From positions 1-64,000 of the forward strand of contig JBFLZD010000008.1 of assembly GCA_040756435.1 (NCBI GenBank): a DNA stretch of 64,000 nt, read 5' to 3'. Both the position numbers and the translations under genes were made by a program. This document shows positions 33,150-36,104 of the stretch, in pieces. The first letter of the stretch is position 1, and each line of letters starts with the position of its first letter. This DNA is from Spirochaetota bacterium (GTDB lineage: Bacteria; Spirochaetota; UBA4802; UB4802). The notes beneath the pieces are model-generated. The model was not told the origin of the DNA, did no database searches, and worked only from the letters and a program-made list of their open reading frames with translations.

Positions 33150-33902
33150 TTACATACTATCGATTGGCCCTTCACTATCGCCATCAATGAACTGCTTTGC
33201 ATACGGATTATTTTTTGAAAAAAATTCATGTGATTCCATATCTACAACAATCATACCATTCAGTAACAAACCAACCTGGTTAGCAGTTTTACGGGCTACA
33301 GCTAAATCCTGCGTTACCAGTAAAGATGTCATCTTGTATTTTTCCTGAGTTGCCAAAATAAGATCAGAAATTGAATCAGCAAGCACCGGGTCAAGCCCTG
33401 CAGTGGGATCATCATACAGAATGATTGATGGTGAAAGGCATAATGCACGAGCAAGCCCAACTCTTTTTTGCATGCCACCACTTAACTGGGAAGGTAATTT
33501 TTGTTCTGATCCTGACAGGCCAACCCATTCTAAAGCCTCCATTACTTTTTCAGTAACTATCGCCTCATCTACTTTACGACGCCGTAACCCAAAAGCCACA
33601 TTATCAAACACATTCATGGAATCAAAAAGCCCGCCTTTCTGGAACACATACGCCATGGTTATATTGCGTTTCATTTTTTCTTCTATAGAGAGCGTAAGGT
33701 ATTGTTGTAACGGAATTCCAGCTAACGCGATAGTTCCTGTAAAATGAGGAAATAGCCCTGCAATTGTTTTTAACAGAACTGTCTTGCCACTTCCATTTTT
33801 TCCAAGAATGACATAGATTAAGCCCTGTGGTACAGAAAGGCTCACATCTTGCAACACTGAATGATGATTAAATGTTAACCCAACATGATTTACAGTTATC
33901 AT
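33150..33902 (-). CDS. ABC transporter ATPase, MlaF-like
   Basis: The 250-residue ATPase has Walker A GKNGSGKT, the signature LSGGMQKRVGLARAL with Walker B SIILYDDPTAGLDP, and FQKGGLFDSMNVFDNV, which matches the MlaF/lipid-transport subfamily (importer of phospholipids with an MCE protein). No permease (MlaE) or MCE (MlaD) gene is adjacent, so its partners must be unlinked. The 5' end overlaps rsgA by 4 bp, which suggests translational coupling. Confidence 0.85.
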   Translation of the reverse strand: MITVNHVGLTFNHHSVLQDVSLSVPQGLIYVILGKNGSGKTVLLKTIAGLFPHFTGTIALAGIPLQQYLTLSIEEKMKRNITMAYVFQKGGLFDSMNVFDNVAFGLRRRKVDEAIVTEKVMEALEWVGLSGSEQKLPSQLSGGMQKRVGLARALCLSPSIILYDDPTAGLDPVLADSISDLILATQEKYKMTSLLVTQDLAVARKTANQVGLLLNGMIVVDMESHEFFSKNNPYAKQFIDGDSEGPIDSM

Positions 33903-34831
33903 GAATACATCGTTGCATAATAATCTTTTAATGAATAGAGAATATTAATATATGAAATATACCGTTCCTGGTATATTACACCTTTTTCCACCAACCGCTT
34001 CACTTCGCAATCTGGTTCATGGTCATGGGTGCAGGGCTTAAATGCACATCTGGCAGCATATTTTTCAAATTCATAAAAATATGTACTCACCAGATGAGGC
34101 TCAATATCCATAATCCCAAATTCACGAAGGCCAGGAGTGTCAATAATTCGCGTGTGCTCTTCCACGATTATCATGGAAACATTGGTTGTAGTGTGTTTAC
34201 CTTTACCAGTGCTTGCAGAAACCTCCCCCACCCTAAGATCCAGATGTGGATACATGGTATTCAATATGCTCGTTTTGCCAACTCCTGAATAGCCAACAAC
34301 GACTGAAGTTTTATTGTATAAGAGTTCTTTAAACTCGTCAATATTGTGACCCGTTTTAGCACTGGTCATTATGATACTGATATTAGTATTTTTGTAATAA
34401 TCGTGTACATATTCAATATCTTTTTTCAAAGCTAAATCATATTTATTAACACACAGAATAAGTGGAATATGTTGCTGTCCACACCTGACTGCTATTCTAT
34501 CAGCAAATCGCAAATTCAGCTTTGGCAGTGCAAATGACTGCATGACAACAACACAATCGCAATTTGCGGCAATGATATCTATTTTTCTGTGTTTACCTTT
34601 TTCTTTGCGTGAAAAATAATTTTTCCGGGGAATTATATCTTCAATAACACCTGTACCATCATCGGCTATCGTTATTTCAACCTCATCGCCAACAGCAACC
34701 GGATTAGAAAACTTTTCATTATCAGATTCAAATTTCTGACGTAATTTACCTCTCAACACACAGTTTGTATATGAGGCATCATGATATACGGTATAATAAA
34801 GCCCCATTACTTTAGAAACTACACCACGCAT
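33899..34831 (-). CDS. rsgA: Ribosome small-subunit GTPase RsgA
   Basis: RsgA hydrolyses GTP during late 30S assembly. The circularly permuted order is visible: G4 CVNKYD comes before G1 VGYSGVGKTS and G3 IDTPGLREFG. An OB-like N-terminal domain precedes it and a C-terminal zinc site (CAFKPCTHDHEPDC) follows. Length of 310 residues is normal. It is translationally coupled to the ABC ATPase gene. Confidence 0.96.
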   Translation of the reverse strand: MRGVVSKVMGLYYTVYHDASYTNCVLRGKLRQKFESDNEKFSNPVAVGDEVEITIADDGTGVIEDIIPRKNYFSRKEKGKHRKIDIIAANCDCVVVMQSFALPKLNLRFADRIAVRCGQQHIPLILCVNKYDLALKKDIEYVHDYYKNTNISIIMTSAKTGHNIDEFKELLYNKTSVVVGYSGVGKTSILNTMYPHLDLRVGEVSASTGKGKHTTTNVSMIIVEEHTRIIDTPGLREFGIMDIEPHLVSTYFYEFEKYAARCAFKPCTHDHEPDCEVKRLVEKGVIYQERYISYINILYSLKDYYATMYS

Positions 34832-34923: not shown

Positions 34924-35424
34924 CTACTTCTTTGGAACAACTTTAAAAGTAACGCGTCGGTTTGCAGCATCCCTGGGATCCACCCCTGGCAGAAGTTCAG
35001 ATGAACCAACGCCCTTATAAGTCATTTTGGGGGAATCTATTCCTTTAGCCTTCAGAGCATTATAAACCGCTTTTGCTCTTTCAGTGGAAATTTTAATATT
35101 GCCAGGTTTGTTGCCAACCGGTTCTTCAGGTCCTGAACCATCGGTGTGACCGGTTACCTGTAATACATAGCCTTCGGGCAATTTGTTCAATACTTCTTTT
35201 ACAACAGGAGCAGCCATTGTAGCCCATTTATCCCAATCCTGTTTTGGTACAACTGCACTTTTATAGGCAAAGCCGGTTACTGGTATTTTTTCAAGCTGCT
35301 GATTTTGAGCATTTACCAAAGCAATATTTGGATCACCTGCTGGCTGCTGAACTTCCGGAGTGCTGCTGCAAGCAACCATCATCATTATCATTATTACCGC
35401 AAAAACTAAAGACATTTTTTTCAT
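34924..35424 (-). CDS. OmpA-family lipoprotein
   Basis: A lipoprotein signal (hydrophobic MIMMMVAC lipobox) precedes a 110-residue OmpA-C peptidoglycan-binding domain: VLQVTGHTDGSG, IKISTERAKAVYNALKAKGI, YKGVGSSELLPG and DAANRRVTFKV, the last containing the conserved NRRV. It is tethered to a membrane (most likely outer) and clamps the peptidoglycan. A GAAAGGAG ribosome site precedes the start. It is monocistronic, with a hairpin downstream. Confidence 0.9.
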   Translation of the reverse strand: MKKMSLVFAVIMIMMMVACSSTPEVQQPAGDPNIALVNAQNQQLEKIPVTGFAYKSAVVPKQDWDKWATMAAPVVKEVLNKLPEGYVLQVTGHTDGSGPEEPVGNKPGNIKISTERAKAVYNALKAKGIDSPKMTYKGVGSSELLPGVDPRDAANRRVTFKVVPKK

Positions 35425-35569: not shown

Positions 35570-35728
35570 TAAAGGAAATAAGCTTTTCTTCCGACAATAA
35601 TAACTGACATGAGCACATAAGTAAATCCCTCCCGATCATTACTTTTTGTGCTCAAGGCACTGCGCATACGTTTACCCATTTAGGGGAAGGCAGGATAGCC
35701 GCCCAGCTATCTTGCCTTTCGTTTTTTT
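35570..35728 (+). ncRNA. Candidate small RNA with a C-rich loop and own terminator
   Basis: A TATAAT lies at 35557-35562. About 50 bp further on, a hairpin forms from arms GAGCACA-AAGTAA (35611-35624) and TTACTT-TGTGCTC (35639-35653), with loop ATCCCTCCCGATCA. A CCCATTTAGGGG hairpin follows at about 35675, and then a strong terminator. There is no convincing open frame. A C-rich single-stranded loop that could pair with a Shine-Dalgarno sequence is typical of regulatory RNAs. It matches no family that I can name (not 6S, SRP RNA or tmRNA). Confidence 0.6.
35689..35728 (+). terminator. Intrinsic terminator of the candidate small RNA
   Basis: GGCAGGATAGC, six bases and GCTATCTTGCC are followed by TTTCG and seven T. 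It has no T tract on the minus strand, so it serves plus-strand transcription even though both flanking genes are on the minus strand. Confidence 0.9.
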
Positions 35729-35741
35729 ACACGATGCTTTT

Positions 35742-36104
35742 TTATGGAAGCTTTTGTAGAATTACCGGTTCAAAATAATTCAGTTGTGCAATTACTTCCT
35801 TTAGATTACCCACACCTTTCACAGTGAATGTGACAGTATATTCCATTCCAGGATGCAGATTTAATTTTTGCTGCATAAACCAGGGGGCTTTTTGCAAATC
35901 AAGGCAGTCAAAGGTAATATCATGGTTTTTTTTATCATAAAACGTTATAACCTGAAATACTGTATCATACCGTTTTAGCTTTAATATCATTGTGACTTGC
36001 TTATTTTTATAATTTTCAATGGTGTCCGATAGTTCATAAAGATAAGCTTGTGGATATGCTATTGTTGTAAATAATACTATCAGTATTGATAACAACTTTT
36101 TCAT
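35742..36104 (-). CDS. Exported protein of unknown function
   Basis: The signal peptide (MKKLLSILIVLFTTIAYPQ) precedes about 100 residues that look like a small OB- or beta-rich domain (TMILKLKRYDTVFQVITFY and MEYTVTFTVKGVGNL). The frame runs up to 36164, but the AGGAGGG site lies just ahead of the ATG at 36104. Function is not recognised; the beta pattern resembles NirD/OB periplasmic proteins only loosely. Confidence 0.7.
   Translation of the reverse strand: MKKLLSILIVLFTTIAYPQAYLYELSDTIENYKNKQVTMILKLKRYDTVFQVITFYDKKNHDITFDCLDLQKAPWFMQQKLNLHPGMEYTVTFTVKGVGNLKEVIAQLNYFEPVILQKLP

Follow-up and report, generated by a model that had tools for sequence, protein, structure and literature searches.

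A conserved candidate small RNA of uncultured spirochaetes carries a loop complementary to the Shine-Dalgarno sequence of one flagellin paralogue

Introduction

Among the closest described systems are CjNC1 and CjNC4 of Campylobacter jejuni (CJnc10 and CJnc170, the latter also FlmR), which are small RNAs (sRNAs) transcribed with sigma28 and, like the RNA described here, are predicted to pair with the 5' UTRs of flagellar mRNAs (PMC4626219, PMC11187230). According to the available parts of these reports, target reporters were repressed in E. coli independently of Hfq (PMC4626219, PMC11187230), and the two RNAs have 37 of 44 nucleotides in common (PMC4626219). They differ from the present RNA in that their predicted targets are sigma54-dependent genes (PMC4626219, PMC11187230) and in size, CJnc170 being 47 nt long (PMC11187230), unlike the two-hairpin spirochaete RNA of ca. 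125 nt. The E. coli RNAs UhpU, MotR, FliX and FlgO are likewise controlled by sigma28 and affect flagellin levels and flagella number; in contrast to the present RNA, the sections of PMC10578931 at hand describe them as UTR-derived and Hfq-binding, with MotR and FliX pairing inside coding sequences, and as conserved among some Enterobacteriaceae. A similar seed is found in Xanthomonas sX13, which is strongly structured and directs C-rich loops at G-rich motifs near start codons (PMC3771888). However, sX13 has three stem-loops with 4C-type motifs and a large regulon that includes genes for virulence and type IV pili, and the accessible part of that source describes no sigma28 link (PMC3771888).

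The filaments of spirochaetes combine several flagellins at a defined stoichiometry, and in T. denticola CsrA sites lie near the Shine-Dalgarno sequences of flaB1 and flaB2, as stated in the available text of PMC9481697. CsrA-FliW resembles the RNA proposed here in acting at flagellin Shine-Dalgarno sites, but it is a protein repressor and not a base-pairing RNA. To our knowledge, how the proportions of spirochaete flagellins are set is largely open.

An earlier note, made from the letters of a 64,000-nucleotide stretch of spirochaete DNA (hereafter the window), proposed a small RNA gene with a C-rich loop. In this study, the locus was compared with its relatives, and it appears to encode a genuine regulatory RNA, not catalogued before, that occurs across an order of uncultured spirochaetes, which we take to be GTDB UBA4802. 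A literature search of open-licence papers found no prior report of such an RNA. If the reading given below is true, an order-wide sRNA that recognises a single paralogue by its Shine-Dalgarno sequence would offer a direct, testable answer, for this lineage, to the question of flagellin proportions, and Spirochaetota would gain a flagellar sRNA under sigma28 control.

Results and discussion

On the plus strand of the window, a promoter motif is followed by a hairpin presenting UCCCUCCC, the single-stranded stretch GGCACUGCG and an intrinsic terminator (Table 1). The fold of the 191-nt region was better than those of 200 of 200 dinucleotide shuffles (z -4.53), and the covariance model described below matched the locus at 35597-35728 with 69 bits. 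The CCCTCCC noticed earlier does lie in a hairpin loop, and the strong terminator is there as described. The remainder of the fold had to be redrawn: where an uninterrupted 13-bp stem had been seen, the prediction has 8 + 6 + 3 pairs with small bulges, and no support was found for the supposed second small hairpin, 35655-35684 being occupied by single-stranded, conserved GGCACTGCG and a linker that varies. As noted before, the genes on either side both lie on the minus strand, and with its own promoter motif and terminator the unit keeps its description as a free-standing small RNA gene. Agreement extended to the absence of a fitting frame and of a known family. Some copies of a single family keep an ATG frame open, which is closed in the others examined, and no coding frame was common to several families among the 12 of 36 copies examined; the Rfam search returned no family above the gathering threshold, its single weak match being mir-3204 (E 6.8).

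Table 1. Features of the RNA locus and its neighbours in the window; counts over 43 loci include several contigs fetched twice.
Feature	Position	Strand	Basis or remark
-35-like promoter element TAAAGGAA	35570..35577	+	TAAAG-N16/N15-CCGA in 34/36 distinct copies
-10-like promoter element TCCGACAA; relatives' consensus GCCGATA	35590..35597	+	Alignments of copies
Small RNA	35603..35728	+	Start inferred a few bases past the -10 element; end at the T-run
Hairpin 1, covarying stem	35610..35654	+	Predicted fold; 12/14 pairs (helices 1 and 2) changed on both sides
Loop UCCCUCCCG, proposed seed, complement CGGGAGGGA	35626..35634	+	CCCTCCC itself at 35627-35633
Conserved single-stranded linker GGCACTGCG	35656..35664	+	Alignments; variable linker then runs to the terminator
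Intrinsic terminator	35685..35728	+	15-bp stem 35685-35699/35706-35720, T 35722-35728; loop CGCCCA
Small secreted-looking protein gene, convergent	35742..36104	-	No Pfam family; homologue adjoins the RNA in 38/43 loci
OmpA-family gene, other side of the RNA	34924..35424	-	PF00691; homologue in 12/43 loci
rsgA, conserved upstream-side neighbour	33899..34831	-	PF03193; among the two nearest upstream ORFs in 33/43 loci

Absence of the stems from relatives had been set beforehand as the observation that would refute the RNA; it is kept across the order, and its stems covary. In alignment A4 (41 distinct rows), 94.7% of cells were paired and 19 of 30 pairs and 110 cells had changed on both sides, counts that lean towards the model since A4 was aligned with it. 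None of 500 shuffles reached these values by any measure, and controls in which the partner was slid gave 7-9 pairs and 11-30 cells. Alignment A2, made without structure, gave 97.8% pairing, with 6 pairs and 18 cells changed on both sides; of 500 shuffles, 0, 3 and 0, respectively, did as well. An unguided alignment (A1) was tried for RNAalifold and set aside, as it recovered the terminator alone because MAFFT had misplaced hairpin 1. The terminator stem and loop are nearly invariant in sequence; in helix 3, 97.3% of cells are paired and 7 of its 16 pairs show no change in any row.

Of the 42 aligned rows, 41 have CCCTCCC in the loop; 36 of the rows were gathered by a pattern that itself includes the motif. 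A fairer count, over loci brought in by the model search, is 29 of 30, with the motif again contained in the model. With so little variation in the loop, no covariation between it and the target is seen. The sole variant, CCCTCCT, occurs at L103 in genome G044, which also has GGGAGGGA before a class-3 flagellin gene; its class-4 gene was not among the flagellin matches listed.

RNAs of the CsrB/RsmZ type, which sponge CsrA, are defined by several GGA motifs in hairpin loops. Such an identity was considered for the present RNA and rejected, its loops being CCUCCC and CGCCCA and the GGA of its terminator stem being GAA in many copies.

A BLAST search (E up to 0.001) matched 41 of 59 genomes, the window's own included, with G050 matched through short spurious pieces only. 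The covariance model rested on 17 copies (subset A2) and a structure written by hand. It found the RNA in 41 of the 46 genomes of the order, among them all 30 that are at least 90% complete; the five genomes of the order lacking a match are 66-76% complete. When 392 genomes of the phylum were searched with the model, the same 41 were returned, and 0 of the 346 outside the order matched under stricter filters. Model matches on the opposite strand (24-40 bits) were discarded as the terminator palindrome. The RNA is single-copy in each genome except G016, which has two; the two matches in G019 are one copy split by two contig ends. A pattern search of public records yielded 29 stretches labelled Spirochaetes, Spirochaetae, Spirochaetia or Spirochaetota bacterium, one being an 'uncultured bacterium'.

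In 34 of 36 distinct copies, a promoter motif of TAAAG (or TCAAG, TTAAG), a spacer and CCGA (ACGA in one) lies upstream, the spacer being N16 in 30 and N15 in four, and CCGA stands 29-33 nt from CCCTCCC in these 34. The two copies that lack it are L018, which is cut by a contig end, and L043, the second copy in G016; contig C77 of G016 carries both L043 and its other copy, L046. In the own genome, TAAAGN{15,17}CCGAWA is not enriched as such (14 matches against 22 for the reversed control), and 11 of the 14 lie inside long open frames, one (L079) just before a possible gene start. The three intergenic matches precede flgB (PF00460), fliS (PF02561) and a flagellin gene. FliA passed the cut-off of its family both in the own genome and across the order (43 of 46 genomes), and all 46 have a flagellin match. 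A mapped sigma28 promoter of T. denticola flaB2 has the -10 element CCGATAA and the -35 element TTAA (PMC9481697), and sigma28 sites have been predicted upstream of fliS and flaB genes in Leptospira (PMC5243855), as given in the available portions of these reports. From these resemblances in sequence we infer that the RNA promoter is sigma28-like and that FliA would drive its transcription; the RNA would then apparently be switched on together with the flagellar genes.

The flagellin genes themselves count against this link, as a high-scoring (>=13) sigma28-like motif lay within 440 nt upstream of only one of 159 flagellin genes (among the matches listed). Within leaders of that length, no sigma28 site was found directly before a class-4 gene, and flgB, sought at the fliF loci of relatives for promoter comparison, was not seen there. 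Weaker sigma28-like sites occur at about -250 to -290 of many flagellin genes that stand first in a tandem.

To examine candidate targets, flagellin leaders were read from 113 stretches of 45 genomes, following 150 listed flagellin matches. One paralogue, here class 4 (MRINHNMSAIFANR..., N-terminus MRI[NSG]HN[ML][ST]A[IV]FA), most often stands second in a tandem of flagellin genes. It is a flagellin by PF00669 and PF00700 and matches solved flagellin structures, one entry being named FlaB1. All 33 class-4 genes among the matches listed, from as many genomes, have GGGAGGG as Shine-Dalgarno sequence 4-10 nt before the start codon; the next base is A in 24, T in 7 and G in 2, and the spacing and flanking sequence vary. 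For 13 of the 46 genomes no class-4 gene was among the matches listed, which we do not take as absence. Among the other listed flagellin genes the heptamer was seen in 1 of 136 (G044, class 3); these genes have class-specific ribosome-binding sites of their own, kept across the order, namely CAAGGAGGA in 43, AAAGGAGTG-type in 68 and TCATGGAGGAAT-type in 23, with 2 outside the classes. A C-rich loop motif with a G-rich partner at ribosome-binding sites is thus present in the sequence and the predicted fold. In the own genome, the loop-leader duplex was calculated at -18.3 kcal/mol for class 4, compared with -5.7 to -10.1 kcal/mol for its three sister flagellins. When the complete RNA was cofolded with the class-4 leader, the result was mixed and weighs against a flagellin target: shuffled leaders were clearly beaten in only three of five genomes run (shuffled leaders at least as good per 100: G000, 5; G009, 3; G015, 0; G012, 85; G010, 42); the calculation cannot keep hairpin 1 shut while the loop pairs and therefore tests a different geometry.

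Based on these observations, we consider it probable, though well short of certain, that the RNA is a sigma28-controlled, trans-acting sRNA that blocks translation of class-4 flagellin. The conserved motifs suggest that an RNA of ca. 125 nt would be transcribed by RNA polymerase with sigma28 (FliA), alongside the late flagellar genes, and that the UCCCUCCC loop of hairpin 1 would form 7-8 Watson-Crick base pairs with GGGAGGG(A) of the class-4 mRNA. To judge from its position over the Shine-Dalgarno sequence, the paired loop would keep ribosomes off and lower class-4 translation. One filament protein would in this way be held down while the late flagellar genes are on, which may set flagellin proportions or timing. 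The earlier note had suggested that the loop could pair with ribosome-binding sites in general; on the comparative data this is the best-supported reading, and it may now be sharpened to one flagellin paralogue. The RNA would represent a new family of a known kind, with the sigma28 dependence of the Campylobacter and E. coli sRNAs, a seed like that of sX13 and no catalogued Rfam family; it was set apart from CjNC1/CjNC4 and compared with sX13 by description, the sequence search in both cases being that of Rfam.

A broader role, in which the C-rich loop represses many G-rich sites as a general anti-Shine-Dalgarno regulator and flagellin is one of them, is rather unlikely. A precedent is sX13, which turns C-rich loops on G-rich motifs without Hfq, as far as the accessible part of PMC3771888 describes. 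In the own genome, GGGAGGGA-N2-9-ATG gave 10 matches against 2 in the control, including the flagellin and fliF, and one match that is the RNA's own antisense. The same pattern was searched in 27 genomes, of which 13, picked as mostly hit-poor, were annotated: 99 matches were obtained in the 13, 49 of them open for at least 50 codons. GGGAGGGA precedes many genome-specific genes and, in three genomes of family f3, a 207-residue protein, as a general regulator would lead one to expect. Yet the only protein cluster common to different families was class-4 flagellin, in 9 of the 13 annotated genomes. In the other four (G020, G036, G037 and G041), the class-4 gene has GGGAGGGT, which the scan pattern cannot match. 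The next clusters were fliF (four genomes, one genus), the 207-residue protein (three, one family) and a secreted-looking protein (two, one genus). GGGAGGG before fliF likewise favours breadth, as it is found at 9 of 30 loci (GGGAGGGA at five, all in genus g1), but it is missing at the other 21. Starts were chosen by Shine-Dalgarno sequence, and for L165 and L176, at least, among these 21 an internal start was taken. With these counts, fliF was rejected as a conserved target.

Proteins of 204-210 residues with GGGAGGGA as Shine-Dalgarno sequence were seen at L127, L214 and L372, in three genomes of one family; the one tested had no Pfam match. They are possibly another target of the RNA.

It is improbable that the RNA is a structured RNA of another function, protein-binding or housekeeping, whose match to flagellin is due to chance or merely to a strong Shine-Dalgarno sequence. 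GGGAGGG contains GGAGG and is hence also an ordinary Shine-Dalgarno sequence, and pairing by itself would not require the degree of conservation seen in the terminator stem-loop and in the GGCACTGCG linker. What speaks against this reading is that every listed gene of one paralogue has GGGAGGG, that its sister flagellins in these genomes keep other, likewise conserved ribosome-binding sites, and that Rfam gave no match. The near-invariance of terminator and linker exceeds what pairing or termination needs and suggests, for the proposed repressor of class-4 flagellin too, a further partner, either a protein or a second partner.

Reversed roles appear quite improbable; here the flagellin mRNA would titrate the RNA or else gain stability or activity from it, with its leader serving as a sponge or an activated target. 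In favour of this, the RNA and the flagellin would both belong to the late flagellar phase. In C. jejuni, a flagellin mRNA reportedly titrates CsrA. The available part of PMC4894983 provides the corresponding precedent of a flagellin mRNA interacting with a regulator of its own regulon. Against this, the complementary bases form the Shine-Dalgarno sequence, at 4-10 nt from the start codon, and pairing there most commonly leads to repression. That there is no RNA gene at all, just a conserved terminator with a chance hairpin between convergent genes, is barely credible: the element does lie just past the stop of a convergent gene, but hairpin 1 covaries, the promoter motif keeps its distance in 34 copies (29-33 nt from CCGA to CCCTCCC), and the RNA is in 30 of 30 near-complete genomes of the order.

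The leaders of the sister flagellins were compared with the CsrA site consensus. They are CsrA-site-like, with ACA-AAGGAG-TGT and stem-loops that carry GGA in the loop, e.g. GATTCATGGAGGAATC (L245-L357), unlike the class-4 leader, in which no CsrA-site-like sequence is present. This resemblance suggests CsrA control of the three sister classes, and class 4 may thus be under a different regulator. We tentatively raise, while leaning slightly against it, an order-wide control of the periplasmic filament's make-up, selective between paralogues, in which the three flagellin classes with CsrA-site-like sites would answer to CsrA and the fourth to the sigma28-driven RNA instead, two post-transcriptional regulators setting the flagellin ratio.

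Two further observations were made on the leaders and the RNA's surroundings. An element around CCAAAGGTGGCGA recurs ca. 250-290 nt before the tandem-first flagellin gene (L245, L259, L267 and others); Rfam gave no credible element at 11 flagellin loci, and the CCAAAGGTGGCGA element may act as promoter, as RNA element or as both. The convergent gene at 35742-36104 (minus strand) has its stop at the RNA terminator, where the hairpin lacks a trailing T-run when read on the gene's strand; its mRNA may therefore run antisense into the RNA.
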